In this document: one piece after another, positions 32,380-61,424 of the stretch
Layout: each line of letters opens with the position of its first letter
How positions within the stretch are numbered: position 1 is the first letter of the stretch
Source of the DNA: Lepiota brunneoincarnata
Taxonomy: Eukaryota; Basidiomycota; Agaricomycetes; Agaricales; Agaricaceae
Assembly: GCA_023014365.1 (NCBI GenBank)
Contig: JAEBUN010000027.1
Location: forward strand, 62,001-126,000
Reading direction: 5' to 3'
DNA: 64,000 bases
The notes under the pieces: generated by a model
Database searches by the model: none
What the model saw: the letters and a program-made list of their open reading frames with translations, nothing else
What the model was told of the DNA's origin: nothing
Made by a program: the position numbers and the translations under genes

Positions 32380-33022
32380 AAACACTAAGATACTTTGCTG
32401 CTTATCCTCTTGCTCGCCCTCTGCTCTGCCAACGTACTGAATGCGTTGAGGTACTCTGTTGACTCTTCTGACATACTGAATGTGTCGAGGTACTCTGTGT
32501 TGCCAATTGTGACGTTCTCTGTAGCCATTGCTACGTTCCTACTCTCCACCCCGCCCTTGCCAGCAAACCTGGCTTACCTCCTCATATTTGTCTTTACAAC
32601 AACTGCCACCCTCCTTGCCTACCAAATAATCAACCTAGAACTTGAACAGATCACGTGCCCCTGCCACTGCTGTGTCATCAGATCATGGAATCTGTATTCA
32701 GGAATATCCATAATCGCCACCCAATTCTTCATACTCCTAGCAATAATCGATTGCTAGACAAATATCATCATGCCTCCCAAAAAGTTCTCAGCCCGAGAAT
32801 CCCCATCACCCCCTCCTCCCAAATCAAGGAACAGAATCTCAGGACCAGGTATACAAAACCTGGATCCCAGAAGAAATCCCACACTGTGACCCACTCAAAC
32901 ATCGTTGCCGTTCTATCCTCCATCCCCATTTGATTCACCTACTCCATGTGCATCAACATCTACCCAACTAGTCCCAACAACATCAAGTGTCTCTGCCGCA
33001 CTAGCCAAAAGACAAAGACAAC

Positions 33023-38300: not shown

Positions 38301-38330
38301 ACTTCGCTCTACCACCAAACATACTCAACA

Positions 38331-39356: not shown

Positions 39357-39429
39357 ACTCCACCCAAACACAACAGAAGGAAAAAGATGTAAATGGTTAT
39401 AGTGGAATATAACCTTAGAAATGGGGTAA

Positions 39430-39848
39430 TGTTATCAGAAGTCCCCTTAAACCCCCTTATCAGAAGCCTCACTGGAAGGAACTCTTATCAGAAGCACCCA
39501 ATGTATATAAATAGATAGAAGACCTGTCATCCTGAAACCATCAGAAGTACCATCAGAACAATCTATACTTAGATAGATAAGGATATGACTCACTTACCTG
39601 GGTCCAGATATATATAGTAGGAGCACAGCCACACATAGTAGTATATAAGGATACTGTACCATACCCTTGTATCCTTATCTTAGTGTTATAAAGTTCTTGC
39701 CTCCTATACCTCTTTGCCCTTAAAACTGGCTGGACTATAGTGCTCCATTGTCTCCAAGTCATGCCTAGTAGGACAGGACCAAGTCTGTATAGACATCCTG
39801 CCATGAACTGCCATGCTACTCAAGAGCAAACCCCTAACCTGGGTAACA
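39430..39848 (+). repeat. 3' LTR of Gypsy 1
   Basis: Starts TGTTATCAGAAG, ends GGGTAACA. Preceded by GAAATGGGGTAA as the polypurine-tract candidate. Confidence 0.92.
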
Positions 39849-42800
39849 TGCAAAGCAAGTGGGTGCACATTTTGTGTGGTCCTTAGCATGGAAATTGTCA
39901 ATAATGAATAATGTGTCAGCAAAGAAATTGGGCTCCCAAAGGAGGCAGTATGAACACAGGGCACAGGAAAAGTTGTAAATAACTCTCTTGGGTGCCTTCA
40001 GCCAGCAGGTGATCATTGTTGAAAATATGTCATTCCTCCCTTCACTATCTGGAATACAATGAAACCATAGCTGATGCTATGTGTGCACCAGGCCACCATG
40101 ATGCCACCAGTAAGGCAACATTTGCTATAGGTTGAGCAATGTTTGCTGCATCCTGCTTTTGCCACATTTTTGGGTCCCTCAGTTACCCTCTGATCTGCCT
40201 TCTTGTGCTGATCATGAATGAGGAGGGGATACATGGGGTATTCATGTATTTTGGGCATGCTATAAAAGCATCCAGTCTATGTGAAATCAATCTATACTTT
40301 CCAAGTGTGGCAGGGTACGATCTGTTAAATAAAGTGACAGATCACTTATTAGTTAGTAACGAATTATGATATATAAGTAATTAGTTGTTATGTACACCCA
40401 TCCCTTGGGGATGTCAATTAGTGGACACCGAGTTTCATGCCTTGTGTCCATTTTGACAGGATGGGACCTTAGACTAGCCAAATCCTATTATGTGAAGGGG
40501 AGTTACATATGAAGAACCTTTACACTTGACCAAATCAGTGGGCTTATCAAATCACACTATTATTAACAACGTGTGAATACATCAGTGATTGTTGATCAAC
40601 TCAAGCTAGTGACTAGTGATCAGTGTGTCACTGATACTATTGACTCTACTCAGTTCAATACAATCCACTCACTGTTTCCCAGTGGGTACTTGTGGATTCT
40701 CATATCTCAGCTATCATGCTGACACTGGAGTTTGCGAGAAGATGGTCCAAGACAACTGGAGCATGCTCACATAACTGCATGCATATTGAAATGAGCATGG
40801 AAGGATATCTGTGAGCCTTGTTGTATTCTGACTGGAGTAGCTGGTAGATGTGTGGGACCACAATCAAAAGTGAAATCATCGCAGGTTTTGGCAATTGAAG
40901 GAACACTTCCAGTGCTCAAAGCCCTTGTTGGTTGACCATTTGTAGATTTGACTCTTCAGCCACAATCTAGGGTTGGGTGAGCATAGGCAAATCTGAAGGA
41001 CTCAGTTGGAGGTATACCTGCTTGAAGAACTTTGTGATCATGCCAGGTGGTTTGATACCTCGATGGTAGACATCAATTCCAAAATGTAGCTGAAAAAGAT
41101 TGCCCAAGGCTTGACTGTACTGGATGAGCTGTTTTGTAACCAATGATATGAGGTCCATGTGGTTTGAGACAATGTTGATGGTGTGTTGTGGTGCAGAGGC
41201 TGATTTAGTTGGGGAGATTTGTGTGGTTGCTTTCTTGGTGATTTTGGCTAGAGGTTCCATTGCGATGATCTTTCAAACATGTTTACAAAGACCACTATCT
41301 GGGAGGGCTTGCTGCTTTGGAAAGTATTTTGTGGCAGGACAAACAGGTGATGATGATGAGGTGGTTGTAGGTGGTTTGAGCAATCCTGAAAGCTGTCCCC
41401 AGCTGAATGCAAGGGACACTCCATCCCAGATCACATTATCAGGGTGAGGCCCACAGTTGGGACAGTGAAAGTCACCTTCCAGCCTCTGCAGTCTTGCATA
41501 AGCAAACCAACAAGATCAGAACAGGTCCTTTCCAATAAATCTGGTTCCTAAGGTGTATGCATATCAGCTTGCAACAACCTCACACCAGGCGTCGAAGGGT
41601 GTCTTGGATGATGTATATGTACTTGTGTAGTCATCAAGAAAATCATGAGTGAGTAAGGCTGAATTATTGTAATTGAAGATGCCAAATTCACAGGAGGTTG
41701 GGTCTGATGTATTTTCAATGAGAAGTGGGACAGCTAGGGCATGCTTGGAGTTCTATAAGACAGGGGAAAGAGCTGATGAGGGTGTAAACAATTGTTTGTT
41801 GGGTAGTAGTGGGTCGTGACTCATTATAATACAATTGCTGGGTTGTGGAACAGTTGCAGGATGACGTTGGTGCTAAACAAAAAACATGCCTCTCCAGTAG
41901 CTCTCTGATTGGGGTCAGCTGAGGGTACAAAGCAGGATCAGTTGGTAGGGAAGCCCATATAGGTGGTAGGATTGGTAAGTATGAGACTGCTGTTTCCTCA
42001 TTGATCTTGCAAATGGTAAAATCACCTTTTGTATCATCAGTACATAGTGCTTTCTTTCAGGAGGTATTCACTGACCAGATTGACTTGTAGCATCATTTAA
42101 CTCATCCAAATTTACTTGTAGGAGGCAAGAGAACTCAGCTCTCGACTGCTTGATGTGAGAACAAAAGCTGCCTTGGTGTATCTGATCCTTAGAATCCTTG
42201 GTACATGACCATTGTCCTTCTCCAGCATCAAGTCCTTCATTGATGACAATTGCTCAGTTCATGGGTGTACTTGATGAATTTGTTGTCACTGTAAATATAT
42301 TCTTGTAGATATCCCTGACAACCCACTCATGACAGAACATGACTACAGGTATTTCTTTACTAGTGTCAATAATAAGTCCAAGACCAATGCAGCTGATCAC
42401 ATACTAGAAGGATAATGCATTACCAAGACCATTGAGGAAAACTTTTCCCCATAATACTTGCACATGAAGTGCTGGTGAAGGCAGTGATTCATGGGACATT
42501 GACAAGCAATCCTGACAATGCCTCCAACATCAATGAATTGTAAATGATACCAGTGTGACTAGAAGTGACCATGAGAAAGAAGCAAAAGCTAACATCATGG
42601 TAAGTCACATCATAGTCTGCAACTGCTTTGCATCCCATCCTTGCATGACACACAAGTTTCTCACAATCTGATCATAACTGGCACATCCTCCTAAGACTGC
42701 ATCCACATACTCCACAAATTCTGAGTTGTGTCCCTCTGTAACCTCCAAACTTTGGTGAAAATCAACATCTGACCCAAAGTCAAGGATTGGGTTGATTTCC

Positions 42801-42876
42801 AGGCCATCCAATACTGAAGTCGCAGTTGTATCATTGCTATGTTGAGTAAGTTGGTGTGTCTTTTCCTCTGTGCCAA

Positions 42877-43273
42877 TAACTCACTTGACTGTATTTGCTT
42901 CCTTCTCAGGTGGATTCTGATCCTTCTGATCCTTTCGTTTGCTAACTTTCATCTTTGTTTGCTTGGCACGAGGTTTGCTATCACTGGTCCTCCCTTGTTT
43001 TGTGGGGCTCACAGCCCTGGAGATCTCTGCTACTTTTGAAAAAATAGACAAGTGGGGTTGTTGGCCAGCAGAGAGTGGAAGGCTGGGATATTTCTCTAGG
43101 GATTGACTGCCAGTACCTAGAGTCTTAAGAAATCAATGTTTTGGATGGTCCATGGTGAGTACCAAGTTGCTACAACCAGCATCCCCAGTTCAAATCCACC
43201 AGGATCATCAGACTTGTATGATCCCATTCTTTTTTTTTCTTGACCTTCTCTATCTCATCCTCATACAATCACC
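42877..43273. other. Intergenic, no gene supported
   Basis: Contains short T-rich stretches (for example 43228-43239) and no recognised feature. Confidence 0.3.
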
Positions 43274-44929
43274 ATGCCACCCTCTCCCTCGAAGAAATTA
43301 GCTGCACATCCTCAGCAGAAACCCTGCCAACCATACCATTGCCACAAATGCCCAGATCAGCCTCTTCTCCAGGATTGTGCCCTCCATGGCAAAAAGGTGA
43401 GGAGCAGCTTGTTTGTGAATTTGAGAGCATCTAAGCCAATGATTCTCAACCAGAGGAAGAGTACTGCTGCACATCATGGAGTTTTACCACCCCAGAGTCC
43501 TCAGCCAGGCAGTGCTTCCCCTGGATACTCACCGCAGGGGTTGCAGAATGAAGGGAGTGAATCCACCAACTCTCCTTGAGGGAAGGGCATTCAAGAGGTT
43601 CGATTGCTTCCCAATGTAAGTATTTGACTAGCACAAATCTCTTTGATCATCAGAAAAGCTGACATTTCATAATTGAGGATGACAACATTGATCTCTGTCT
43701 ACACAGACTTTGCACTAATGATACACATGATAACACCAGCCAAGCTGCTCCTGAGGTGCATAGCTCAGTGTCCCAACTTGCCATGGAAGCTGACATTTTG
43801 TAATCAAGGATGTTATCAAATCTTGTTTGCACAGACTTTGCACCGATGGTACATACATGTGACAATGCCAGCCAAGCTGCTCCTGAGGTGCATAGCTCAG
43901 CATCCAGACTTATTTGAAGCTGACATTTTGCATTCAAGGATAATAATATTGACCTTTGTCTACACAGGCTTCATGTGGATGGCACATGTGACAATGCCAG
44001 CCAAGCCACTCCCAAGGTGCAATGTTCAGTGCCTCAACTTATTTGAAGCTGGCATTCTGTCTCCAAGGATGATTATGCTAGTTGTTGTTTACAGCACCTG
44101 CATGTGGATGTGGATGTTACACCTAATAATGTTAGTCAGGCTACTCCTGAGGTGGGTATTTCAGTGCCCTGAGTTCTCATTTTGTACATCTACCATCCTG
44201 TTCATTAGCATACAGCTGAGGGCACTGCCTCAACCAGCAGCAAAAACACAATCTTAATTGATAACAATGATTCAGACTGGACCAGTGATAGTGAAGACAA
44301 TGATGACAGTGGGAAACATGGGCTCATTGAGGGCATCATGAGGGGAAATAATGTATTCAGTAAATCCATAATGATATTCTCTGTGATCCCTCTGATACAT
44401 CAGCCAGAGTGCCTCAAGCAAACACAGGCATTACATTTACCTTGTGAAAATTCTTCTCAGGCTCAAAAACACTTTCATCATGTTATTCAGCAGGTTCTTA
44501 CTTGGGTGAGGGTTGGGCATAAATTTTGATTTCAGCCTTCTGAATAGTTCATTTGCTCTTCAGGTTGAGGGCTTAGCAGCTGAGACAGGCTGCTGGATTT
44601 ATCTTGCAGCCCAACATGCAACTGCTGTAACCCCTTTCATCCACTATATCTTGCCTCAACTCTATGCTGAAGCTGGCCCTGAGCTTGACATCATTCACAC
44701 TAATTTTTCAGTTCTGATGAAGACTCTGGTTATGTCACATTGTTGTCAAGTCATGGACCTCATGCTGGAACTGGAGGACAAGGGCCAAGAACTGAAAGTG
44801 AAGAACCAAGAACTTGAAGTAGCCAAGAGGATGGCCAAGGAGGTGAGTCAGCAGGTGGTGGCACAAAGGGTGGAGGTAGCTCAGAAAGAAGCTATTATTG
44901 CTGAGCTCATGGCCCAGCTCTCAGCATAA
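43274..44929 (+). CDS. Hypothetical protein with acidic region and C-terminal coiled coil (exons uncertain)
   Basis: The 3' end is well supported: an exon reading through SDWTSDSEDNDDSGKHG to HHVIQQVLTW joins, by a GT-AG intron at 44504-44562, to VEGLAAETGCWIYLAAQHAT and then a heptad-like helix (LMLELEDKGQELKVKNQELE, VAQKEAIIAELMAQL, stop). A possible first exon is MPPSPSKKLAAHPQQKPCQP followed by CHKCPDQPLLQDC, a zinc-like pattern. The middle (43659-44175) consists of four degenerate ~130-bp tandem repeats whose open frames contain stops. Family not recognised; it could be a decayed transposon-associated gene. Confidence 0.4.
43659..44175 (+). repeat. Four degenerate ~130-bp tandem repeats
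   Basis: Units begin near 43659, 43790, 43917 and 44047 with GCTGACATTT-type sequence, followed by a TCTACACAG-type segment and CCAGCCAAGCTGCTCC...GAGGTGC. The units diverge progressively. Translations of successive units are alike (AKLLLRCIAQ, AKPLPRCNVQ), so the array may derive from a coding repeat. Confidence 0.7.
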
Positions 44930-45777: not shown

Positions 45778-47077
45778 TGAAAAGGTAGAAATGTTCGTAG
45801 GTTTTAATATAGGTAGAGGGCTTGTTTTCACTAAGCTTAGCCAAAATTTGATAAGCTTAAGCTACTACAAGTGGTATGAGATAGATAATGAACAGTTTCA
45901 TCTTTTGGGGTGTTCTGGGGGTGCATTCTGACAGTGAAACTCAAGAGAGTAGTGTTTTAGAGGTCAATGAACAGCCGTTCAAGTTATCTTAGCCATACAG
46001 TGCAACAATGAAAGGACAATCCCTGTCAATTCAAAGTGCAGGGTCTCTAGTCTCTAGTCTCTGGTCTTTGAACTCTGTTCTCTGTCTCTGTCTCTGTCTC
46101 TAGTACTCTGGAACTCTAAACTCTGGACTCTATTCTCTGTCTCTGTCTCTGGGTTGGTTGATGACTGAAGAAATCACACTTAACGATGCACACTAAATAG
46201 CCCTCTGATACCACTCTTGATCATGGCTTGCAGACTTGCATGTGGAAGCAGGGGTGAGACCTCTTGCTTCTCCATGAACAAGCACAACTGTATTTATATT
46301 GTTTAGATACATACAAGAGATAGTAAATATGAAATAGAACACAATCAGCTTAATTGTTACAGGTACTGCAGAATATTTTGGAAGGTTTGGCAGCATTTCT
46401 ACCTTGCCCTGGGTTATGGGTTTTTCTCTGATTGATGAATGGCAATCCAGCCAGATGCATTCCGTGCTCATCTGCATTATTCTGCATCCACATGAGCACA
46501 TAAAGCCTCTGGATCAATTATGATTGGAATGTATAGCATATGGACAATCCCTTGATCTGTTGTAATTAATCTCAGTTAGGCAGTATGCCAAGGTGCTGGG
46601 ACCCACAAAGCACTTGTTAATTATGAGTCTTTGATATTTCTAGGGTTTTGGGCATCAGGTGTCACCTCCCAAATGTTGGATGTTCTGTCCCATGGTCCAG
46701 TCATCATTATTGGGCTTGCTATAGGCATAATACACCTGCAACAGCCACTAGGTACATTCTTTATGTTCAAATGCATTCAGGTTCATCAGAAAACTGCTTG
46801 TAAGGTCCCTTGATGTGGCCGGAATATACTTGATAGGCTATGTAGAGTCTTGAATCCCTCCAGGAGAGTGTTCTGATAGCTTGGTTCACTAAGCTTAGTG
46901 ATAATGAGCTGGTTTGAACACTTCTGAGGCTCAAATATCCTCAATTCAGTTGAACTGGCTACTACGGGACATAGTACCAATCCTCTATAGAGTTCTTTAA
47001 TAATATAGCCAATGATTCTATGTAGAGAATTGTTCCAGAGTACAGAATTCATGTATAAGTGTGAAATCAGTATATCA
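45778..47077 (-). repeat. Solo LTR of the Gypsy 2 family, reverse orientation
   Basis: 1300 bp matching the LTR at 47554-48846 in opposite orientation, from TGATATACTG (at 47077) to CCTTTTCA (at 45778). No internal region is attached on either side, so it is a solo LTR inside the NLR-type gene. A target duplication could not be confirmed (GACAG versus ATGGT). Contains the TCTCTGTCTC-type microsatellite (46056-46152). Confidence 0.82.
46056..46152. repeat. TCTCTG/TCTCTA microsatellite within the reverse solo LTR
   Basis: Repeated TCTCTGTC and TCTAGTC units; the mirror-image AGAGACAGAGAC block is at 48478-48583 in the forward LTR, so the repeat belongs to the LTR family. Confidence 0.8.
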
Positions 47078-47553
47078 CTGTCCAAGAACATGCAAGTGTA
47101 CGATTGCTCCCAATACATCAACAAGATGAGTATCAGGCTGTCCAAACTCCACATCTTCAATGTATTTGAGAATCATACTAGCAAATATGAAAAGCCCTGA
47201 AGCCTCTTTGATAATGTGCACAATATCATCCTCCAGCAGCCATGAGCCATCACTAGTTTCCATCACACAGTCCCTGTATTGCTTGTGTATCTCCTTGAAC
47301 TGTGCCCAAATGAACCATGCATTGTCATCCCAGTTGCTCAGATAGAAATTATTCCTGGCTCCAGGTGATGAAAGCCTGGAAGCTACATTAGTGATGATGG
47401 CTGGGTATAATTCCAGCCAAATCATTAAAGGATTAGAAGATGTCAGTCACTTAAAGGGACTTGGAAACATACAGGCATGTTGCCAATTGTCTCCCCTTGG
47501 TGGCTTGGTTGGTTGTCATCATTAAATTTGCCAACTGGTATGCAACAAGTCAT
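47078..47553 (-). pseudogene. NLR-type gene fragment, upstream part
   Basis: Minus-strand frame 47425-47078 contains FIWAQFKEIHKQYRDCVMET, EDDIVHIIKEASGLFIFASM and ILKYIEDVEFG. The EASGLFI(F/W)A motif is characteristic of the region following the NACHT nucleotide-binding core in fungal NLR-type proteins. Cut downstream by the solo LTR and upstream by Gypsy 2; the P-loop part is not in the window. Confidence 0.65.
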
Positions 47554-48846
47554 TGATACACCAATTTCTTGCCAATACATGAATTCTGTACTCCAGAACG
47601 ATTCTCTTCATAGAATCATTGGCTATATCATTAAAGAACCCTATAGAGGATTGGTACTATGTCCCATAGTAGCCAGTTTGACCGAACTGAGGATATTTGA
47701 GCCTCGGAAGTGTTCAAACCAGCTCATTATCACTAAGCTTAGTGAACCAAACTATCAGAACGCTCTCCGGAGGGATTCTGGACTCTACATAGCCTATTGA
47801 GTATACTCCAGTCACATCCAGGGACCTTACAAGCAGTTTTCTGATGAACTCGGATTTGTTGGAACCTAAAGAATGTACATAGCAGCTGTCACAGGTGTAC
47901 TATGCCCATAGCAAGTCCAATAATGATGACTGGACCACAGAACAGAACATCCAATGTTCAGGAGGCGACACCCAATGCCCAAAACCCTAGACATATCAAA
48001 GACTCATAATTAACAAGTGCTTTGTGGGTCCCAGCACCTCGGCATATTGCCTGACTGAGATTAATTACAACGGATCAAGGGATTGTCCATATGCCATACA
48101 TTCTGATCATAATTGATCTGGAGGCTTAACATGCTTGTGTGGATGCAGAATAATGCAGATGAGCATGGAACATGTCTGGCTGGATTGCCATTTGTCAATC
48201 AGAGAAAAACCCATAACCCAGGGCAAGGTAGAAATGCTGCCAAACCTTCCAAAATATTCTGCAGTACCTGTAACAATTAAGCTTATTGTTTTCTATTTCA
48301 TATTTACTATCTCTTGTATGTATCTAAACAATATAAATACAGTCATGCTTGTTCATGGAGAAGCAAGAGGTCTCACCCCCACTTCCACATGCAAGTCTGT
48401 GAGCTGTGATCAAGAACAGTTTCAAAGGACTATTTAGTGTGCATTGTTAAGTGTGATTTCTTTGGTCATCGACCAACCCAGAGACAGAGACAGAGAACAG
48501 TGTCCAGAGTTTAGAGTTCCAGAGTGCTAGAGACAGAGACAGAGACAGAGAACAGAGTTCAGAGACCAGAGACCAGAGACTCCATGCTTTGAATTGACAG
48601 GGATTGTCCTTTCATTGTTGCACCATACAGCTAAGATAACTTCAATGGCTGTTTGTTAACCTCTAAAACACTACTCTCTTGAATTTTGCTGTCAGAATGC
48701 ACCCCCAGAACACCCTAAAAGACAAAACTGTTCATTATCTATCTCATATCACTTGTATTAGCTTAAGCTTATTGAATTTCGGCTAAGCTTAGTGAAAACA
48801 AGCCCTCTATCTATATTAAAAATCCACAAACATTTCCACCTTTTCA
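47554..48846 (+). repeat. 5' LTR of Gypsy 2
   Basis: From TGATACACC to CCTTTTCA, 1293 bp; aligned with the reverse solo LTR (45778-47077) and with 60052-60849. TATAAATAC near 48333 is the promoter candidate. Contains the AGAGACAGAGAC microsatellite (48478-48583). Confidence 0.85.
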
Positions 48847-48848
48847 TC

Positions 48849-48866
48849 TGGAGCCCACCACGAGAG
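48849..48866 (+). promoter_or_regulatory. Primer-binding-site candidate of Gypsy 2
   Basis: TGGAGCCCACCACGAG begins 2 bp after the LTR end. TGG pairs with the CCA end of a tRNA. The same TGGAGCCCACCA lies 2 bp after the 5' LTR of Gypsy 3 (61150), supporting both LTR ends. Confidence 0.6.
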
Positions 48867-49126
48867 GGGTTTTCAGTTGAATTTCACGAGACAAACACCA
48901 AAAGACTTGGACACTGGCCTGCCTTTCACCTGTGAAGCAGAAAAAGGTTCAAGCAAAGACCGTAAAGTCACCCAAAACATCCTTTGAGAGCAGTCTCAGG
49001 AAGGTTGACCCCCCAAAACAGAGAACTACTTGGAATTCTAATCATCCAGAAGGTTCTGAAGGCCTCATCGCCGCTAGTACCTCCCAAAAGTGAAAAGATC
49101 CTACTAGTTCTATAACTGCAAGCATA

Positions 49127-50473
49127 GTGGGCGGTTTAGCAGTTGCAGTATTGAGAGAAGTCGCACCACCAATCTCTACTGCTCCCAGAATTACTATAAG
49201 GCTTCCAGCCTCAGCTTGCAACATAGTGCATATTCTGCACACCAAAAGCCAGGACAGTCAGACTGTTCCTAAGCTAAGCTTAGCGTTTACAAACCAAAAC
49301 TCATTTCATACAAACCCTCCTGGTGCCTCTATGGTACCACAGATATCACAGTCAACTCCGACTGTACAGACAAACCAAACTATGCCGTCTACGATGACAA
49401 TAGCTAGTAAAATGGGACACGAGCATATGCCGATTCCCTTTAGCAATAATGCTCCCAGATGGGATCCATCAAAACCACAGACATTGAGAAATTATCTCTG
49501 GACACTTGAACAGCTCTTCACAATAACGAAGATGATGGATGATGCAGAAAGGATAAATTGGGCAGTATCATATGTGGACCAGGATATCTGTGAAGAGTGG
49601 ATGAGTTTTGCGGAGTTCCTAGCAGGGAGCTGGACAGGCTTCGTAGAGAGATTAAAGAAAGAGTATCCTGAGACTGTGGCAGCTGAGCAGGGCTCAGTGC
49701 AACAATTGAGGGAACTCTGTTCAGAGAGTAGAGGCATTGCAGTGAATGGGGAGCATAAAGTCTTGGACTTCAAAAGGCGATTCATTCTAGAAGCAGAGAA
49801 GTGCCTGAAGTTGCTGGCAGTAGTCTCAAACCAAGAGCTAGTCAAGTTATTTACAAGTGCACTGGACTCCATGTTCCAGGATGTACTCAATGCAAGATTA
49901 GCAATCACCGGGGCATGTAGAACCACGAGCGATGGGTCGGCACTAACTGCAAAGGATTTACACAAAGAGGACCCCTATGATTGGAGGATCATCGTGGATA
50001 AAGCCATTAAAATTTCGATTGGCAAAACACTTATGCGATCCCTTCATCAGGATTCAAGGCCAGTGAACTTGGCATCGATGAGCCATCCACTTGCAACATC
50101 TGGAACAGGGACTTATGACCCTGTAGTAAAGCGAGAGCTACAAAGCTTAAAGCAGAAATTCCAGGATGAAGTCTCGCAGATGGCAGGAGGCCTCACTGAG
50201 CTTAAGGACCTCATGAATATCCAGGGGCATACTTTAAAATCATACTTAGAGAGTTTGGCAAAGGATGGACATAATCATGCTGGCTATAATCATGCTCAGA
50301 GGAATACCAGAAGTGGGCCAGCAGGGTCACTTTCCAATTGCAAGTGTTTCTACTGTTGGTTATTGGGGCATAGTTGGTTATTCTGCCTGGACATGGAGGC
50401 GGATAAACAAGCTGGCCAAATTAGAGTTGAAGGGAACAAAATATATATGGGAGATGGCTTGAGTATCCCTTGA
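49127..50473 (+). CDS. Gypsy 2 gag
   Basis: Open for 448 codons; the first ATG in frame is about 49331, before which only a GTG is available. Capsid-like region with WTLEQLFTITKMMDDAERI, WMSFAEFLAGSW and FKRRFILEAEKCLK, then a CCHC-type knuckle CFYCWLLGHSWLFC near 50345-50386. Forms the element particle and binds RNA. The frame ends at a TGA inside SIP-EGPI, where the family normally reads on. Confidence 0.75.
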   Translation: MGGLAVAVLREVAPPISTAPRITIRLPASACNIVHILHTKSQDSQTVPKLSLAFTNQNSFHTNPPGASMVPQISQSTPTVQTNQTMPSTMTIASKMGHEHMPIPFSNNAPRWDPSKPQTLRNYLWTLEQLFTITKMMDDAERINWAVSYVDQDICEEWMSFAEFLAGSWTGFVERLKKEYPETVAAEQGSVQQLRELCSESRGIAVNGEHKVLDFKRRFILEAEKCLKLLAVVSNQELVKLFTSALDSMFQDVLNARLAITGACRTTSDGSALTAKDLHKEDPYDWRIIVDKAIKISIGKTLMRSLHQDSRPVNLASMSHPLATSGTGTYDPVVKRELQSLKQKFQDEVSQMAGGLTELKDLMNIQGHTLKSYLESLAKDGHNHAGYNHAQRNTRSGPAGSLSNCKCFYCWLLGHSWLFCLDMEADKQAGQIRVEGNKIYMGDGLSIP

Positions 50474-50868
50474 GGAGAAGGGCCTATTAAGGAGAAAGTA
50501 GTGAAGTACTATGCGACAAAGGGACAACTCTTTGTTCAGGTACCAGAACTGCCGGAGGTTAAGCCTGAGTTACTGCAAGTGCCAGCGGCAGCAGTGTTTG
50601 CACAGAAAGCGTTCCTGAGGTCAGAAAACCAAAGGTTGCCAGCAGAAGAAGAAATCCACTGTCTGAAGTAGTGCATGGAAATGTTGGAAACAGCTGCCAT
50701 CCATGCTGGGAGTGCCCCAAAGGTTAAGCTTATGACCAGAAAGGATGATAATGTCGAAATCCAGTCTTTGGCCAAGCAATTGGCCCAGATACAGGCTAAG
50801 CTTAGTGGTTTGACAGATGGTACACCCTTTGCAAGCCAGTATTTGGACACCAGGAGTGGTGCAAAGAC

Positions 50869-53178
50869 TTGGAACTTGGAGTTGGGTTTCTAAAGGGTTT
50901 GAGGAAGGAGCCGGCTCTGAAGAAGAAGGTCGCCTTCGTCAGAGGACAGACTCCTGAGGATGCATTGGATTCCGAGCGATCAGAAGAATCAGAAAATGAG
51001 GAAATAGGGCAGACAACAGAGAAACCAACATGTGCAGCAGCAGGGGGATTACCATATAGGAGTGTGAAACCACTGCACCCAGTCATTGGGGTACCACCAC
51101 TGCCTGTCAGAAGGATGGAATCATCCAAGAAGGAGCCTGCATATAAGCACCAGGCCCCTATAGAGAGGAATGTCAATGTTGAGGAAGTACTCAGCAGGGT
51201 ATTGAAGCAAGAAGCCTCAGTATTGCATGGAGAACTCTTGGCATTGTCACCTTTCTACAGGAATGCTTATAGAGAGCAAATTATGAGAAAACAGGTACCC
51301 ACAAATCAAAGCTTAATAGCAGGAGTTGGACCCTTGGAAGATGATACAGAACATATGGAAATTAATGATGGGCTGGTACAGGTCATGATAATGGAGTTGG
51401 CAGATGGTTCTCGGAAGTATGATACAGTGCTCTGAGAAGGCTTGGCAACCCAAGCCTGGGTAGCTCAGGATCCAATCATGCAGTACTTGGAGTCACTTCC
51501 CAGAAGAGACAGGGGACAGCAAGTGTTTATTGCTAAAGAATGCAAACCATTGAGAGTAGTTCCGACTCTGATAAATGGGATTCGGCAGGAAGTGGCCTTG
51601 CTAGATAGTGGGTCACAGATCATATCCATGAGTCAGGAAGTGGTGATTGCATGTCAAGTTTCTTGGAACCCAGACACTACAATTAATTTGCAGAGTGCAA
51701 ATGGGCAGGTTGAAAAGACTTGTGGGTTGGCAAAGAATGTAGGCTTTACCTGCGGGGGAGTCACAATCTATTTGCAAGTTCACATCGTTCGTAATCCCAC
51801 ATATCAAGTACTCCTGGGATGGCCATTTGATGTAATGACAGCTAGTGAAGTCAGGAATAGTGCCAGTGGCAAGCAAACCTTGGTTTTTATGGACCCAATA
51901 TCAGAGAAAGGGCTGCATTGCCAACTTATGCTTGAGGAGAATGTAATCCTCTTAAGCTTAGAGAAAACAGTCAAAATTTTCAAGAAACCTCGATGAGTTG
52001 ACTAAGGGACAAGGAGAGGTGGCTTGTATAATAGACTATGATGATGAGAAGGGCCCTGTCATTGCACAAACACTAAGCTTAGTGAAAGGAAGCTTCTCAG
52101 AGGCCAAGCTACAGCTAATGTTCATTGACCAAGTCATATGTGATGAGGACTGCCCACAGGAAGATAAAGCAACAGTGTTATTGTGCCTAGGGCGCATAGC
52201 CAATGCGCAGGATATTGAGGGTCAGGGAATAACTGTCTTTGAAACTGAAGGAGATGACAAAGATGTGGTACAATGCCTGGCTGGGAAGAAATATAAACCA
52301 GTCACCTTAAAAGTGAGGCCAGTGTTGGGTGATTTACCAGAGAGATTCAGGATAAAACGAGAAATAAAAGGGGACCCACTGGCAGAAATGCCTAAGCTTA
52401 GCATGCATCCTCCAGAGTTTGCCCTGACAGGCAGATATACTGAGGAGCATAAGCTTAAGCTGGATGAAGCCCATGCAGGGGATTTCTTGTGGCCAGAAGA
52501 AAGAAAGCTGATGCACCAGGTCATGATGCTTCAAGAGGAAGCATTCGCATGGATAGATGAGGAAAAGGGATGTTTTAGGGAGGATTTCTTCCTGCCGATC
52601 AAGATACCAATGGTAGAACATACTCCATGGGTTGAAAAGCCCATTCTGATTCCACCAGCAATCTATGATGAAGTCTGTGCCATTATAAAAAGAAAGATTA
52701 GTGCTGGTGTATATGAGCCATCAAGCTCATCCTATAGATCTAGATAGTTCTGTGTGGTAAAGAAAGATGGAAAAAGTTTGAGACTGGTACACAGCTTGGA
52801 ACCTGCTGAACAGAGTGACGATAGTGCATTCAGGACTGCCAGCCAGCAACAGAAGATTTGGCAATGCACTTTGCAGGCAGAGCTTGCGGAGGCATTCTGG
52901 ACCTGTATGTTGGGTATGACAAGCAATTGTTAGCTGAGTCGTCTTGGGACTTAACAACATTCCAAATACCTTTTGGAGTGCTATGCTTAGTGATGCTACC
53001 TATGGGATGGACCAATTCAGTGCCTATATTTCATGAGGATGTAACAGCAATCCTAGCCAGTGAGATACCAGAATACATGATGCTGTACATAGATGATGTA
53101 CCTATCAGAGGACCGAAAACCAGATACAAGCTGCCAGATGGCACTGAAGAGATGTTGAAAAAGAACCCAGGGATCTGA
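50869..53178 (+). pseudogene. Gypsy 2 protease and reverse transcriptase
   Basis: Protease VALLDSGSQIISMSQE near 51594-51640. RT from about 52330 (PLAEMPKLSMHPPEF, KRKISAGVYEPSSSSYRSR). It is interrupted by TAG at 52745 where a conserved Trp is expected and by frame loss at 52800-52860, then continues with FAGRACGGILDLYVGYDKQ and the catalytic MLYIDDVPIRGP near 53086, ending at TGA after NPGI where Arg is usual. Confidence 0.8.
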
Positions 53179-53196
53179 CAATTTGTATGGGAACAC

Positions 53197-54246
53197 ATGC
53201 AGATGGTCGATAGGATTCTACAGAGGATGAAATACGTAGGGGGAACCTTCTCTGGGCCCAAGACGACTATCTGCACTGATGAAATCACCATAGTGGGTTT
53301 TGAATGCTCATATAAAGGACAGTTGCCTTCCACAGACACCATTGGGAAGATATTAAGATGGGGGGACTGCGAGAATGTCTTTGAGCTAAGGGGTTTTCTA
53401 GGAACAGCTACATGCTGCAGGAATCATATCCTGAAGTTCATAGCCATTGCTGCACCTCTATATGAAAAGCTTAAGAAGGGACAAGAGTTTGAGTGGGGAG
53501 AAAACAAAGGGAAAGTGCAGCAGGAGCTGAAAGATGCGATTCAGCGCTGTTTCCTGACCAGGAACCCTGAATTTCCAAGTAAAAAACCCATAGTAGTAGC
53601 TGTGGATACCTCATGGAGGGTGGTGGGATACTATATATATCAGAGAGATGTAGAAGACGCTAAGCTTATACATTATGCGAAGTTTGGGTCAATATTATTG
53701 GACGAGAGACAGCAGAGGTGTTCTCAGCCCAAGCAAGAGCTATGCAGCTTAAGAATGGTGCTGGAACAGGAGAAATATTTATTGTGGGGATCGAGAAATC
53801 TAGTAGTGGAAACAGACGCGAAGTTTCTCTTTGGGATGCTAAACAACCCAGGAAAACTCCCGAACACTACTGTAAACCATTGGGTGGACTTCATTAGATT
53901 GTTCCACTTCATGCTAGTACACAAAGAAGGGAAGACATTTGGGCCAGATGGACTGTCCAGACGATGTTACTATCCAGGTGATGAGACAGCCTGTCATTTC
54001 AACAATGGATCTGAGGACAAGAGAGAGGAGTTTGAGTTGATCAAAGAAGATCCAGGGGCTGCAGATCCATTACCCTTGGAAGCCTTCTGTGATGAGATTG
54101 ACAGTCACTCTGGCTTCAACCAGGGTCTGGCGCGTGATGTGTATGATTTTGAGTATGAGCTGGATCAAGCTTGGGAAGAGTACTTGGATGAACAACAGGC
54201 TAAGCTTAGGGTTATAGAAGACCCAGCATGCCCAGAAGACCACTGA
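53197..54246 (+). pseudogene. Gypsy 2 RT thumb and RNase H
   Basis: 349 open codons: DRILQRMKYVGGTFSGPKT, RGFLGTATCCRNHI (RT thumb), then RNase H from VAVDTSWRVVGYYIYQ through SQPKQELCSLRMVL, VVETDAKFLFGML and FGPDGLSRR. Ends in TGA after CPEDH. Listed apart from the RT because a stop separates them, although they belong to one polyprotein. Confidence 0.8.
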
Positions 54247-54261
54247 CAGGTACTAAGCTTA

Positions 54262-55822
54262 ATGACAGATGTCAGGCTAGTGCCAGATTTCAAAGAGGAA
54301 AAGTTGACTGAGATAGAGGAAGTGTATGATGAATCATGTAGGACAGATACAGCACAAATACAAGATGGAAGAACACCCAAAGTCAGGGAATTCCTGAAAA
54401 CAGGGGGCAGTAGCGCAGCTGAAGGCTTAGATGAGCCAGATCTGCATAAGCTTAAGTATATGGTGGAGCATTTCTTCTTGGATGAAGAGGGGAGACTGTA
54501 TAGGATGAGTCCTAGCAGTCAACATCAGCTAGTAGTGGATAAGGAGCAGCGTATGTATATGTTGTGAGCCAGCCACAACTTCCTAGGGCACAGAGGAATA
54601 TATGCAACCACTAAGCTTATAACACAGAGGTTCTGGTGGCTGGAAGTTGAAGGAGACATAGCTTGGTATGTGCAATCATGCCATCTATGCCAGCAATGGC
54701 AAAAGGTGATCATCAAGATGCCACCAATAGTAACACCCATGCCATTGATATTCCAAGTGCTACATGTGGACATGCTACATATAACACCAAGTTCTAATGG
54801 GTGTAGTTACATTGTGCATGGAAGATGTGGACTGTTATCCTGGATGGAGGCAAAAGCTTTGAGAAAAGAGAATGCTAGTTTGATTGCGCAGTGGTTATTT
54901 GAAGATATCATTTGCTGATGGGGCTGTATAGTGAAGATTATCACAGACAATGGTTCTCCATTAAGAAAGCTGTTCGATGGCTGGAAGAAAAATATGGGAT
55001 AAAGGGAGTAATGATATCTCCTTACAATTCCAAAGTGAATGGGATTATTGAGAGACCCTACTGGGATGTGTGGCAAATGTTGTACAAAGCTACAGATGGA
55101 GATGTCAAAAAGTGGTATTGGCACCTACTGCACATTATGTGGGCAAATTGGATAACCATTAGAAAAGGAACAGGGTGTTCCCCGTACTTTTTGGTAACCA
55201 GAGCACACCTGACGCTACCTCTGGATATCCAAGAGGCCACTTGGCTAGTATAGCTACCAAATAAGTACTTGACCATGGCCAAGTTGATAGGATACCAAGC
55301 TCAGGCTTTGGCAAAACATGTTTGGCATGTTGAGGAGGTGTGTCAGTGTGCTTCAGACACTAAGCTTAGCAAAGCTTGGGAGATGGAATGACAAGCAGCA
55401 CATAAGATAAAAGATTATTGCTTCAGCCCAGGAGATTTAGTATTAGTGAGAAATACAGCTATAGAGAGCTCAGCAGACAGGAAGATGAACCCCAGTGTTC
55501 AGAGTAATTCCCTACTTAGCCAGAAAACATATGCCGTTGCCACTGAAGTTACAAGAGTTGTTAGATCTGTCACCAGAGGGACTGAAGACCCTGGAGGAGA
55601 CTACTGAGGATGAGCCTAGTGACAGATGGGAGCCAGAAGAGTTGGAGGGATAGAAAAAACCTGATATTGTGGACAGAACTATCTACTTATCAAAGGAAAA
55701 CTATCCTGGGGACTGTAAAAGCGTTAAGCTTAAGAGGGAGAGGACTTGTCCAAGTCAGAGAGGTTGCGCAAAAGGCTTTTGAGATGGATGCACTCTTGAA
55801 TGAGGAATTGGAACCTCTTTAA
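54262..55822 (+). pseudogene. Gypsy 2 integrase and C-terminal tail
   Basis: Zinc finger: H in ASHNFLGHRG, then CHLCQQWQK near 54580-54705. Catalytic core: VLHVDMLHITPSSNG (first Asp), IITDNGSP (second Asp) and GIIERPYW (Glu) near 54760-55060. Stops after YML, EDIIC and WLV interrupt it. A further tail to about 55822 reads ELLDLSPEGLKTLEET. The integrase inserts the element DNA. Confidence 0.78.
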
Positions 55823-56552
55823 GTTGGCTTTGAGTGAGGGAATAGCCTCGATGAAGTCCCAGCTGAGCAAATTGAGGTCGTATTTGACTGACCAAGTGTC
55901 ATCACCATGAGATTTGGACTCATACTCATTGCAAGAGTAAGACAGGAGGTTTTGGAGTTCCTGGAGCAAACGAGCTGCCCAGGATAAGTATCAGAACCAT
56001 TATGCTTAGTGAATAGAAGTGAGAAATTGCCCACTGGATAAGCCTGCAAAGGTGCACTCATTGGAAGTAAACTCAGTATGGGCAGGCTTGGCAGTATTAG
56101 CATTGGCTTTGGCTAGAACCTGTTCAGCCTGGGCATAACAGCAGTGTTTAGTGTTCATATTGGGAACTTGACAATAGGGAAGAAGATGGATGGTGCCTTT
56201 AGATGATGAGGACTTTTTGATGGTCTCCTAAAGAGGGAGGAAGTCAGAATCAGTGGTTAGGGGGAGTGGAGCTGGCGCACCACATTGGAGGTAGACAAAT
56301 GACACTTGTAATAAGGCGAAACTACACAAACCTCTTTGACAATAGCTTGAGAAACCTCCTTGTCAACCATCATGTCCTGAAGGCGAGCAATGATCTCAGC
56401 AAATGTTATAGGTTGAGAAGCAGCTAGATTACTGTGTCAGCACCAGTTGCTTGGGAGTTGGAGGCACTGTTCATACTCTCTGCAGGCTTGGTATCAGTGT
56501 CTACCACAACAGCAGCAGAGACAGGGGCCTTGTGACCTTTGCAAGGCTAAGC

Positions 56553-57480
56553 TTATACATGAGAAGACAACTGGAGCCAAAAGAATGCTAAGCTTGTGTG
56601 TTTGGGGACAGCAGAGCCTTTGGCAATGTTGGAGGAAGTAGAGCCAGTTGTGAACGATGGGTTCTGAGCCTCTTCAGTCCTGGATTTGTGGGATTCTTCA
56701 GAACAAACGTGATTAATGCAGCTACAGCATTCAGAGAGCACCTTATAGATCGCGGGCATCTCATAAGACAAATGGTAGTTGTTTTGGTAAATTTTGTTGA
56801 GCTTGCAGATATGGAAGATGTAGTCCTGGTTGACATGAAGCTTGATAGCCTCATTATCCTCCGATAATGCTTCAATATAAGCAGACTAGAAATGATTTAG
56901 AAATGGTGAGAGAAGCATGAAAAGAGTAGTCATACCCCAGGGGCATCAAATGCAAGAAGAGCCTTCTTGACGAGAGGACAAGCAACTTGGCTGTTTTGCA
57001 GGCGCTGAAGATGACCTTTGGCATTGCTGATGAGATTATCAAGCTTGACCTGGAGATGGGGGATAGAAGAAGCCATTTTCTTGCAAAGGGTGTCTGCTAG
57101 AATGAGATGTTGCTCCCTCGCTTTTATAAGAAAAGGCTGTTGGCAGTGATGACAAATCATAATGAGTGGATGAGAAGCACCCTCCACCCTAAGCTTATGA
57201 CCTGAGAGGCCCAGGAAACCTGTAATCTTGAGTAGCCAGCCTTCAACAGACTTGCTGAACCACAGTTGCCTTATTAGGTAATATGTCGCCAGGGTCTTGC
57301 AGTTATCAGTGTGCACAGGGATTCTGATGGAATGGTGAGGGCACTGATTTCAATTTGGCTAGGGGGGAGATGGGTCCCAAGGGGCACTTCAGTTTGACAG
57401 TTTGCAAAGAGCTTTTTCGAACATTGTGGACAGGCTGGTTCAGGCTTGTAAGTAAACCGGAATGGATGACCAGGTCACTA
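56553..57480 (-). CDS. Antisense hypothetical gene 1 inside Gypsy 2 (exons partly resolved)
   Basis: The minus strand has a clear splice: an exon ending KKALLAFDAPG joins across a GT-AG intron (about 56940-56883) to SAYIEALSEDNEAIKLHVNQ and DYIFHICKLNKIYQNNYH, running to a stop at 56553. The upstream exon carries MICHHCQQPFLIKAREQHL and AKGHLQRLQNSQVACP; a still earlier piece has CPQCSKKLFANC near 57450, but the join was not resolved. A coding-like stretch at about 56310-56400 (ITFAEIIARLQDMMVDKEV) suggests more exons downstream. Family not recognised. Confidence 0.4.
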
Positions 57481-57695
57481 CACATTGTGGATCACAGCAT
57501 GTTGAGGTGTCAATAGACATCGCAGAAGTATCAGAGAAATATCTGATGAGCATATAAGCAGCTGGAAACCTTAGCCTAGCTTGGGATGTTCCAGATGGTC
57601 TTAAGCTTAACTCAGTAGGAGACAAGAAACAAGATAATGATATTGAATGTATATACATGTACATTCAAGAAATAAAAAAAAGATAAAAAGAGACA

Positions 57696-59741
57696 TCAGT
57701 TCAAGTCCTCCAAGATGGCCTCAGGATCCTGAGTCATCAGGAAAGCAAGGAAGAGAAGTGACTTGAGCTCCTCAAATTCCTCGTATGTTGGGACTCCTGG
57801 AAAGTTGTCAGCAAACTCAAAGAATGCCTGAATGTCTTCAAGGGAGTCAGCCATCCCCATCTCAATGAACACGACATTGTTACCTTCCAAGGCCATCCTG
57901 GTAGCTTGCATTTCCTGGACAAACTGATAAACCACCCAATGGTGGTGAAACACCAAAGCCTCATAAGCGACGCAGTTCACCTCCAGGCTGACCAAGCTGG
58001 AGGACACAACACATGCAAAAGTGGCCAGATCTAGAAAATAAAGAGAATAAGAAAAGAGAAAAATAGTGAACAGAGAAAATTATGGTATTCACTGGTCAGT
58101 GAAGACGTGACTAGGGCATTCACAATGCCAGCCAAGACTCACAGATGGTCTGCAAAGGTGCAGGGGTAATTATAGAGGTCGCAGCTGTGACACTTCTTAC
58201 CCTTGCCCAGAGGCTTGCACTCCAACTTACAAGCAGCGCAGGAAGGACACTGAGACTGAGGTGGCACGTACTGGGGTAGATGTCAAAACCTTCAGTAAGG
58301 AAACACAAGAAAACTTGGAGAATGTACTGAAAGCTGGCTAGCTGCCAGCAGCCTAGGAAAGTCCTCATAAAAGAGCGGGACTGGGTGGCAGTATCCATGG
58401 TCCTGAATAATGGCAGCCTCAGAGCGTCGAACATGAGCTCAGGGAATGTATTTCTTCATCTGCATGTTGGAACTCTTCTTGGACGAAAGGATGCATTTTT
58501 GAGGTGACGGGCCAGCATGAGGAGACTCTTGAGGGATCTCTGGAACCACCAGGCTAGGCAAACAAGAAGGGATGGGGGTTGGAGAAGCTAAGAACGCATC
58601 TTGAAAAACAAAAGTCAGTTCTTGAGGGGCAGGGAAAGGCTCCAGAAGGAGCTCCAAATCTGGAGAAGGTGAAATCTCCATGGCGCTTGCAGGAGACTCA
58701 ACTGGAGCACCAGCTAAGTGAGGTGGTGATGGTGTTGGGCACCTAGGTGAAGCCAGCACATGTTGCCCATCCAGAGAAGAGGACCAGCTAAAGATTTTAA
58801 AGAGGTCAGCTTGAGAGACCTCAGGGACTGGAGAATGCAATGACAAGTTAGAACCCGCCAGGAATAAGGGGAGAGGGGGCAGCATTGATAATTTTGCCTT
58901 CTGTTTGCCTTTAAGGGCAGCTGGTATATGCACTAAAGCAGAAGTCAGTGGAAAGAAAAAAAATATATCATGAAAATGACTAAGCTTATGCATTGAAGTA
59001 GCAGAAGAGAGTATGGGGGAAGAAGGCTGGTTTGTTGAAGGGCCCAGTACCTCCAAACCTGATGCAATACCCAGGGGAGGGAGCACCAGCAAGTCTTCCC
59101 CATCCAGGGTGTGCAGAGAGATGGCGAGAGGGGGCAGCGACATTGAGCTGGACAAAGCCTCTGTGGATAATCCACCAGAGGGCCCGCCAATGGGGATACC
59201 TGACAAGGGTTCTGTGGAAAATCTGGCAGAGCGCTCGTCAGTTGGATTGCACAATGACATGATGGAAATCACGTGTCTTGGCACTGGAGCAGTTAAGGGA
59301 GAGGCTGGCAGAGGAGTTGGTTTGTGGGGTGGAGAGTATGGTGGAGGAGGGGTCCTTGCCACACCCACCTGATGATTTCTGCAAGCTCCTCAAGCTCCTT
59401 GCCCTCCTCTAGCCCTCCTAGTACACAGTGCTGGTGGTTCCCATTGAGGCAGGAGGTTGTGACATGCTGGTAGGTGAATAGTGAGACCTAAAAGCAGAGA
59501 AAACATGAGTGATGACAACAAGAACAGGGAAAAATGTGACTTATGTTGTACAATTGATGATGAAGGCACGCCTTGAGAAGCCAGTGAGGCATTGCTTGGC
59601 CCAGCATAGCCTGAAAACAGCGTTAAGAAAACAGAGAAAACTGTAACTCGAACTCTACTTACTGGAAGAAGAGTCTGAGTCCTCTTTGTAGCAAGCACAT
59701 TTGCTGCTGTGCATGTTTCTGTCCATTACTGATAAAAGTGG
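57696..59741 (-). CDS. Antisense hypothetical gene 2 inside Gypsy 2, zinc-cluster-like
   Basis: Exon 1 from ATG near 59733 (MDRNMHSSKCACYKEDSDSS) splices by GT-AG introns into YAGPSNASLASQG and then GGLEEGKELEELAEII. A long proline/serine-rich stretch follows (59368-58439). Then RRSEAAIIQDHGYCHPVPLF and a cysteine cluster CPSCAACKLEC...GKKCHSCDLYNYPC near 58150-58250. After a GT-AG intron the last exon reads from LATFACVVSSSLVSLEVNC to a stop at 57696. The HPVPLFYE(D/N)FP plus C-cluster layout resembles hypothetical proteins often annotated next to Gypsy elements in Agaricomycetes (recalled, not checked). A TGA after KKYIP and unresolved joins leave it uncertain whether this copy is intact. 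Confidence 0.45.
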
Positions 59742-60038
59742 GTGATGAAGAGTGATATGCAAGCAGGATAGATGAGTAAGAAGTGAGAGGGAGAATGAAA
59801 GAGAGGAAAAGAGACCTTGGGACATTTAAAAGACCCAATAATGAGATAAAAATTTAAGCTATAGCAACAAGAAGTTGATCTATACATTTAAACTCAGTGA
59901 CATGACATCATTTTGGAATAAGCTTAGCAAAAGTATGCTACTCTAAAAGCTGGTGAATGTTCTAGAACATAGAGTGCATCAGAGAGACTCAGATACTGTG
60001 AATTTGAAGGAGATAATGACTGAGGACAGTCAGCAATT

Positions 60039-60051
60039 GGTTAGGAGGAGA
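60039..60051 (+). other. Polypurine tract of Gypsy 2
   Basis: Purine-rich GGAGGAGA ends directly at the LTR start TGATATGCTG (60052), as expected for second-strand priming. It fixes the 3' end of the internal region 4.8 kb beyond integrase. Confidence 0.6.
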
Positions 60052-60849
60052 TGATATGCTGATTTCATGCCTATACATGAATTCCATACTCTGGAATGAT
60101 TCTCTACATAGAATCATTGGCTATATCATTAAAGAACCCTATAGAGGATTGGTACTATGTCCTGTAGTAGCCAGTTTGACTGAACTGAGGATATTTGAGC
60201 CTCGGAAGTGTTCAAACCAGCTCATTATCACTAAGCTTAGTGAACCAAACTATCAGAATGCTCTCTGGAGGGATTCTGGACTCTATATAGCCTATCGAGT
60301 ATACTCCGGTCACATCCAGGGACCTTATGAGCAGTTTTCTGATGAACTCGGATTTGTTGGAACCTAAAGAATGTACATAGTGGCTGTTGCAGGTGTATCA
60401 TGCCCATAGCAAGTCCAATAATGATGACTGGACCACGGAACAGAACATCCAACGTTCAGGAGGCAACACCCGATGCCCAAAACCCTAGACATATCAAAGA
60501 CTCATAATAAACAAGTGCTTTGTGGGTCCTGGCACCTTGGCATATTGCCTGACTGAGATTAATTACAATGGATCAAGGGATTGTCCATATGCCATACATT
60601 CTGATCATAATTGATCTGGAGGCTTAACGTGCTCATGTGGACACAGAATAATGCAGATGAGCATGGAACATGTCTGGCTGGATTGCCATTTGTCAATCAG
60701 AGAAAAACCCATAACCCAGGACAAGGTAGAAATGCTGCCAAACCTTCCAAAATATTCTGCAGTACCTGTAACAATTAAGCTTATTGTTTTCTATTTCATA
60801 TTTACTATCTCTTGTATGTATCTAAACAATATAAATACAGTTGCACTTG
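60052..60849 (+). repeat. 3' LTR of Gypsy 2, interrupted
   Basis: Closely matches 47554-48352 up to ATAAATACAGTTGCACTTG, where the Gypsy 3 LTR begins. The remaining ~500 bp of this LTR should lie beyond the window. Confidence 0.8.
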
Positions 60850-61424
60850 TAGGGATGCCCTCTCGGCTACACGAGGACATTGCGATTATCTAGTGTAGAG
60901 TGGTAATTCGGCTCACTCTTTATCTCTCTCTATTTATTCTTATCTTACACATAATTCTTTCACCTTCACACTCATTTTTACGTAGAAAACTCGCTCATTT
61001 ACGCTCTCAGTCTCTCATTTACATACAATAGCACTCCTTTTATTCCTGATTTTCGTAGAAACACAGACACATAGAACCTTTGAAATACGTGCCACATAGT
61101 TACCGAATACACATCTTTTACCCCTGAGAACTTGTGGCAGCCTTACACTTGGAGCCCACCATGAGGGGTGGCTAGCTCATAACCACACTCCTTCTCTATC
61201 CCTACAATCCTTACAACACGGCAGACCAACCAAGAGTCCAGACACGGTCACAGTCGAGGCTTCCATCCCAGCAAAGTCAGTCTTCTGAGAGCACGAAGCG
61301 TCGACGACCATCAGGAGCAGGACCTACAGTGACCACATCATTGTCAGACCAAGAGACATTATGAGGCCACACATGAAAGGCCTTACTCCTCACCTCAACA
61401 CCACCAGTAACACCAACCCCTCAA

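Follow-up and report, generated by a model that had tools for sequence, protein, structure and literature searches.

Antisense genes and a selected palindromic word in a Ty3/Gypsy-type retrotransposon of Lepiota brunneoincarnata: a proposed element-encoded reader of dispersed DNA sites

The DNA transposon En/Spm encodes the DNA-binding protein TnpA, whose sites are repeated subterminal motifs found only at the ends of the element. Among fungi, many Zn2Cys6 factors bind two-fold symmetric sites as dimers, with the well-studied proteins reading mostly CGG-type half-sites and the Zn2Cys6 cluster usually placed near the N-terminus. Here, we describe a 64-kb stretch of the Lepiota brunneoincarnata genome (contig JAEBUN010000027.1; "the window") in which a palindromic octamer, TAAGCTTA, is dispersed through a long terminal repeat (LTR) retrotransposon that also carries two antisense genes, one of them with a candidate Zn2Cys6 cluster. 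Two systems offer the main comparisons. For VANC/VANDAL of Arabidopsis, we draw on two sources (PMC5735166, PMC10398659); the first describes a protein encoded by a transposable element (TE) that recognizes dense short motifs and causes methylation loss, and gives the VANC21 motif, YAGTATTAY, as non-coding, in one orientation and in tandem repeats (PMC5735166). In plant Retand and other Gypsy elements, antisense open reading frames (ORFs) lie between pol and the 3′ LTR and are suspected of DNA-binding or regulatory functions (PMC11963269).

As in VANC/VANDAL, the short motif described here is dense only in its element family and sparse elsewhere, the candidate DNA-binding protein is encoded by the element, and related families may use other words, for which the evidence here is suggestive only. 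VANDAL is, however, a Mutator-like DNA transposon and the present element an LTR retrotransposon, and unlike the VANC21 motif the octamer is palindromic, dispersed, and found within coding sequence (13 times in the gag-pol frames of one copy). The element resembles En/Spm in combining a transposon-encoded DNA-binding protein (here a candidate) with many sites in its own DNA, but its octamers are not confined to the ends and it is not a DNA transposon. Retand is the nearest structural parallel, sharing antisense genes between pol and the 3′ LTR, but the TRP28 domain (PF04195) of the plant proteins was unmatched in the antisense frames scanned here, and the available part of the Retand source does not mention a dispersed binding word (PMC11963269). 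For bdelloid LTR elements with extra ORFs, the term "DNA-binding" does not occur in the available part of the source (PMC5408684). Titles and abstract openings of the open-licence literature returned neither an octamer of this kind in a retroelement nor an LTR retrotransposon carrying a Zn2Cys6 gene. The single paper in which the octamer and the term "retrotransposon" occur together concerns apple skin.

The window contains 29 exact copies of TAAGCTTA, 28 of them within positions 45832-60783 and a single outlier at 21823, the same numbers as in an earlier sequence-only reading of this DNA, which had counted 28 in about 15 kb and one elsewhere. Dinucleotide shuffling of the window (100 shuffles) gave a mean of 0.66 copies and a maximum of 3, the runner-up palindromic 8-mer occurs only 6 times, and no word in the element that does not overlap the octamer is enriched to a comparable degree. 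Together with the genome-wide counts given below, the shuffles and the word comparison rule out chance or base composition as the source. Only 10 one-mismatch neighbors lie in 45832-60783 against the 28 exact copies, so TAAGCTTA is a sharp word; the window has 12 occurrences of the word CTAAGCTTAG, all but one of them in the same interval. The 28 regional octamers are not independent, comprising 23 distinct sites of the element, three in a solo LTR and two in the truncated 3′ LTR. Their spacing had been described as irregular, at 20-1450 bp, which is the correct range, and it is indistinguishable from random placement (P = 0.19 for spread, P = 0.17 for the largest gap). Density in the antisense-gene region is 1.39 per kb, compared with 1.16-3.09 in other parts of the element. 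Positions 32001-44000 of the window are also CpG-poor (observed/expected CpG 0.09-0.28) and contain zero octamers; low CpG by itself is thus insufficient to yield the word, and the possibility that it is equally dense in any CpG-poor DNA finds no example elsewhere in the window.

The genome-wide count that the earlier reading had proposed gives 5370 occurrences of TAAGCTTA in the 55.6-Mb genome (95 contigs), compared with 842 of the reversed word, and 2011 of CTAAGCTTAG, compared with 39; as CpG-containing words, the reversed forms are imperfect controls for these counts. In twenty sampled 10-kb stretches, picked because the motif is present, 128 of 130 octamers sit in DNA that aligns to the element at any identity, which makes up 63.5 of the 200 kb. 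One of the 128 (C1:690842) lies in a 65% identical sister family, here called family A, and two (C1:701130 and 703266) lie in a relic of 68-75% identity. The octamer therefore belongs essentially to one element family, as the window alone had indicated. The RNase H piece of the element has at least 116 matches in the genome, mostly 77-91% identical, with one at 66% and three at 60-61%; these numbers are minimal, as scoring covered 114 of 1067 first-look candidates. Of the two octamers that fall outside the family, one is in a Copia-type element (L010:4415-6461, minus strand), whose integrase and reverse transcriptase (RT) frames were recognized by eye.

Within the coding region, the octamer is selected as DNA, not as protein. 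We analyzed a better-preserved copy, C1:457606-464584, using four stop-to-stop frames (gag, protease, RT-RNase H and integrase). These frames hold 13 octamers, compared with a mean of 0.14 and a maximum of 3 in 5000 synonymous-codon shuffles, a result that needs selection or a word-specific process and that rules out protein constraint as the cause, much as the sequence-only reading had argued from the reading phases. Ten of the 13 encode Lys-Leu and the other three Leu-Ser-Leu; among the Lys-Leu cases is C1:457623, found where the gag stop-to-stop frame is still within the LTR. Lys-Leu pairs in this copy are spelled AAGCTT in 12 of 16 cases and Ser-Leu pairs AGCTTA in 5 of 12. At C1:461233 the element reads KLS while aligned relatives have proline (9 of 11) or leucine (2 of 11) in place of that serine, and here the octamer may even have altered a residue. 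It is uncommon for a DNA word to be selected so strongly that codon choice yields to it along a whole LTR retrotransposon. The base flanking the octamer is G in 0 of 46 ends, read on either strand, as would be expected if the site extended a little past its 8 bp; other flank preferences are not strong, and palindromic extension beyond the octamer is not significant at any distance from 1 to 10.

Other copies that were examined do carry the octamer, and they keep it. Alignment between copies shows 120 of 134 octamers unaltered, whereas matched words free of CG, TG and CA are kept at a fraction of 0.58. In alignments of at least 500 bases, LTR octamers are kept in 54 of 54 cases (controls 0.67) and internal octamers in 52 of 58 (controls 0.53); with shorter alignments included, the LTR count is 65 of 66. 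A stricter filter, which excludes these hot dinucleotides in both sequences, gives 54 of 54 against 0.79 for the LTR (resampling 0.022) and 90 of 93 against 0.76 for internal octamers (resampling 0 of 3000). Another three copies carry 9, 6 and 3 stops within the RNase H piece; they keep 34 of 36 octamers, both departures being single substitutions. Genome-wide, LTR sites with exact flanks number about 500, with one departure among the approximately 100 listed, and a single hand-picked LTR control position shows at least 5 different octamers among the places listed.

The 14 departures in the main set consist of seven single-base substitutions, one double substitution and six unrelated words, the last at positions in 65-69% identical family A alignments, three of which have gaps of 1-2 bases. 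None of the 14, nor of the two in the further copies, is an 8-bp gap, and protein relatives show no gap at two well-aligned octamer sites. A tiny mobile insertion, one of the origins offered by the earlier reading, is rejected on this lack of 8-bp gaps at homologous sites.

A site for a symmetric DNA-binding protein, of the element or of the host, was another of those suggestions and is still the best reading, with a predicted candidate for that protein now found in the element itself. The antisense gene adjoining the 3′ LTR (57696..59726, minus strand, start by eye) consists of a proline-rich N-terminal part, an exon at about 58143-58270 with a Zn2Cys6 pattern, and a last exon at 57696-58028; in the window copy it is interrupted by in-frame stops. 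The cysteine pattern CX2CX6CX8CX2CX6C (58249, minus strand, in the window) is also present in stretches L011, L019, L022, L027 and L028, and a six-frame search of the window and of L005-L028 returned no further match. The six cysteines do not vary among the five exons compared, and their spacing falls within the fungal Zn2Cys6 consensus CX2CX6CX5-12CX2CX6-8C, as in GAL4, PPR1, HAP1 and AlcR. A Foldseek search of the PDB with E up to 10 gave five matches, all to Zn2Cys6 proteins (HAP1, PPR1, GAL4 twice and AlcR) and none significant alone; a sequence search of the PDB to E 10 found five haemoglobins and one import protein, which were taken as chance. The ratio of nonsynonymous to synonymous substitution rates (dN/dS) between element copies is 0.08-0.23 (six short pairs, dS 0.33-1.08), from which the gene appears to be maintained, apparently under purifying selection. 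The last exon has 142 matches genome-wide.

Two near-identical, host-like copies of the Zn2Cys6 gene lie outside the element family (C35 and C60), at L027:2617-4171 and L028:4582-6136, and have open frames and introns; a neighboring ORF is one that we take for a Nik1-like histidine kinase. These copies may represent the source of the element's gene or a domesticated form of it. A search for homologues of the Zn2Cys6 protein in a set of 5.8 billion proteins found nothing at E 0.001 (7996 and 3524 candidates), a weak negative given that shared 5-mers were required. A search for relatives in viral contigs gave 7 pattern matches, none confirmed.

Our preferred proposal is that the element's own antisense Zn2Cys6 protein reads the octamer as a dimer and acts against silencing, or as an activator, in a VANC-like manner; we hold it tentatively, as a possibility somewhat short of probable. 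The retrotransposon would fill its LTRs and coding DNA with about 23 palindromic sites of the form HTAAGCTTAD (H = not G, D = not C), the antisense-encoded protein would bind them as a dimer, and the resulting coating of the whole element would keep transcription open against host silencing, or activate it. Binding, dimerization and anti-silencing or activation are steps that we infer. Family DNA is strongly CpG-depleted (observed/expected 0.14-0.28 over 46001-60000), which suggests silencing, while the octamer has no CpG to lose; the depletion may reflect methylation silencing or a process similar to repeat-induced point mutation. The octamer is a real and selected feature, and the mechanism is a proposal that can be tested directly, with one small protein, one exact site, and copies in the thousands within a single genome. 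Should both binding and anti-silencing be borne out, an LTR retrotransposon of a fungus would join the Arabidopsis DNA transposons as a case of sequence-specific counter-silencing, and the Zn2Cys6 protein would offer a ready-made tool for addressing chromatin by sequence.

Several observations weigh against this proposal. The Pfam Zn_clus family (PF00172) scores under its gathering threshold (16.8 vs. 21 bits for the L027 exon) and matches 3 of 5 exons, all below threshold, with a best E of 0.0017, while zf-ChsH2, a zinc-ribbon family, matches 2 of 5 exons with a better best E of 9.1e-5. The fold model of the candidate protein is poor (predicted local distance difference test, pLDDT, 59), and the dN/dS values come from few short pairs and may be biased by CpG decay. 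Unlike fungal Zn2Cys6 factors generally, the candidate is sub-threshold in Pfam, is antisense in a retrotransposon, and has its cluster in the second half of the protein (residues 247-280 of 412, as read in L027), and TAAGCTTA contains no CGG, the usual half-site. No octamer lies in the 10 kb around either host-like gene copy (C35 and C60). The family A stretches, L025 (C21:465157-467007) and L013-L014 (C1:684974-696182), include no complete family A element. The reader could also be a host protein or the second antisense gene. At the base level, 7 of 128 octamer positions are variable compared with 581 of 4773 non-hot positions, an approximately twofold difference, and changes private to one copy are not clearly fewer in octamers (6 vs. 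10.7 expected, P = 0.08). Shared variants are fewer (1 vs. 4.9 expected, P = 0.04), and the base-level pattern fits selection acting in active lineages, as opposed to dead copies being protected.

The strongest rival holds that a host nuclear protein, such as a transcription factor, chromatin protein or centromere-type protein, binds the octamer and that the element accumulated sites to exploit it. We consider this unlikely, if worth serious attention. The evidence for a symmetric site (density, codon test, flanks and conservation) fits a host reader equally, and the frequent preference of Zn2Cys6 factors for CGG half-sites speaks in its favor. On the other hand, the octamer is rare outside the family in the DNA examined, with 2 of 130 in the sampled stretches plus the one in family A, 1 in the rest of the window, 1 in the 20 kb at C21 (again the family A site) and none in L027 and L028; there is thus no sign of a host regulon, though a few sites would escape such a count. 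Family A, which is related and resides in the same genome, does not use the octamer.

Family A has an RNase H 60-61% identical to that of the main family and one octamer in 11 kb, at a position the main family does not use. The Zn2Cys6 cysteine pattern is absent from the family A stretches examined. A scan for dispersed words in DNA outside the family (393 kb, overlaps included in the count) produced four hits, to three words, below P = 1e-6. The top-ranked, GTTAACTA, occurs 8 times in 11 kb of family A, compared with 0.47 expected (P = 4e-8), and recurs in a 98% identical copy, but with full correction for about 33,000 words and about 65 windows it is not significant, and genome-wide it is not enriched (973 vs. 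2087 for the reversed word). Three copies of GTTAACTA lie in the family A LTR and are intact in 6 of 6 cases in two 94% identical LTR copies (controls 0.84), which is uninformative. That family A may use GTTAACTA as a different word is suggestive only. An extension of our proposal, in which Zn2Cys6 protein and word co-evolve as a private address code, the word spreads to all parts of the element, conserved codons included, and sister families run on other words, with each protein coating and de-silencing only its own family, is rather doubtful. Two further words, GGAGATCC (C1:727844-731656) and TAAGGATA (in another LTR), were rejected as comparable dispersed words, being local repeats or LTR duplicates. 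GGAGATCC occurs eight times in L017 and L018, several times inside longer palindromic repeats about 50 bp apart, downstream of short tandem repeats, and GTTACCTA occurs 5 times in or near pol of family A.

The octamer could, alternatively, tag the element for something besides transcription, for example the targeting of its own integration complex, nuclear positioning or recombination between copies. Dispersal over both LTR and body would suit such a mark, and LTR matches far exceed full copies in the stretches examined, so that LTR recombination is frequent; sites are not limited to LTRs, however, and we regard this explanation as improbable. A role in RNA, in which the palindromes would make contacts between genomic RNAs for dimerization or packaging as a dispersed counterpart of the retroviral kissing loop, has in its favor that the palindrome runs all along the genomic RNA and is kept in both gag-pol and LTR. 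Against this, sense-strand octamers are predicted to be less unpaired than 150 words of equal GC content (0.41 vs. 0.51, standard deviation 0.21), retroviruses need no more than one or a few dimer sites, and the antisense-gene region carries the octamer at the density given above, which together make an RNA role quite improbable. Very improbable is a mutational or copying artefact (a word spread by conversion, a tiny mobile insertion, or slow decay of a CpG-free word), for which it can be said that the octamer lacks CpG, TpG and CpA and so escapes the dominant decay, and that base-level constraint is only twofold, but to which the unrelated-looking flanks of distinct sites, the departures without 8-bp gaps, the lack of any comparably enriched non-overlapping word and the codon test are all opposed.

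The element that carries the octamers spans 47554 to about 60051 (12.5 kb) and is a Ty3/Gypsy-type LTR retrotransposon, as seen from its LTRs with TG..CA ends, its primer-binding site, its Pfam domains in Gypsy order (protease, a weak RT, RNase H and the integrase zinc domain) and a gag assigned by position. The 5′ LTR (47554..48846, plus strand; query coordinates 1753-3045 in matches to other copies) has octamers at 47734, 48278, 48764 and 48784, ends in TG..CA, and is directly followed by the likely primer-binding site TGGAGCCCACCACGAG, both by eye. Octamers had earlier been assigned to the LTRs, leader and coding regions; the LTR and coding assignments stand, and the leader does not, as 48764 and 48784 are LTR sites. 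A gag-like frame (49094..50473, plus strand), with an octamer at 49275, has no Pfam match, and two more octamers (50725 and 50797) lie between it and the next frame, an aspartic protease (51436..51996, plus strand; PF13975, E 3e-8; octamer 51953). RT and RNase H follow in pieces at 51962..54246 (plus strand; octamers 52074, 52393, 52450, 53661 and 54201), the frame being broken here, with RT_RNaseH matched at E 3.1e-9 and RVT_1 weakly, under the cut-off, at E 0.0047. The integrase region (54247..55720, plus strand; Integrase_H2C2, E 2.4e-13) has octamers at 54254, 54447, 54612 and 55361. Among 7997 scored candidates, 1795 were homologues of the pol protein; all of the 120 listed have RT_RNaseH and many have integrase domains, and Agaricus bisporus is the sole organism named among them. 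Twelve of the pol relatives (P0001-P0012) are 60-70% identical. Some genes of the genome can be read with short introns, which, with the A. bisporus relative, suggests an agaric-type fungus.

On the opposite strand, the antisense gene nearest pol (55725..57390, limits approximate) is defined by minus-strand open frames, had no Pfam match in the frames scanned, and contains octamers at 55725, 56548 and 57190; the first overlaps its stop (by eye), in agreement with the earlier statement that a copy supplies the stop of an antisense gene. The Zn2Cys6 gene has one octamer inside it (58981) and another just past its end (57602), and a single octamer at 59919..59926 lies between its start and the 3′ LTR. 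The 3′ LTR (60052..60850, plus strand) is truncated at about 60850, has octamers at 60232 and 60776, and forms direct repeat D2 with the 5′ LTR, 12498 bp away. Upstream, an inverted solo LTR of the same family (45778..47077, minus strand; inverted repeats I1, I3 and I5, left end by eye) has octamers at 45832, 45852 and 46890, and its fourth site, at about 46350, is TCAGCTTAATTG, one base off the octamer. This solo LTR is about 480 bp from the 5′ LTR, and the two make up a large inverted repeat (45778-48846) that could give hairpin RNA. Across the window, observed/expected CpG is 0.03-0.28 in the retroelement island at 32001-60000 and 0.50-0.93 in 1-32000, and by this CpG pattern the TE islands look as if methylated and decaying. 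Further upstream, 43721-44175 holds a 59-nt unit in four copies, 129-135 bp apart, the later ones 69-85% like the first.

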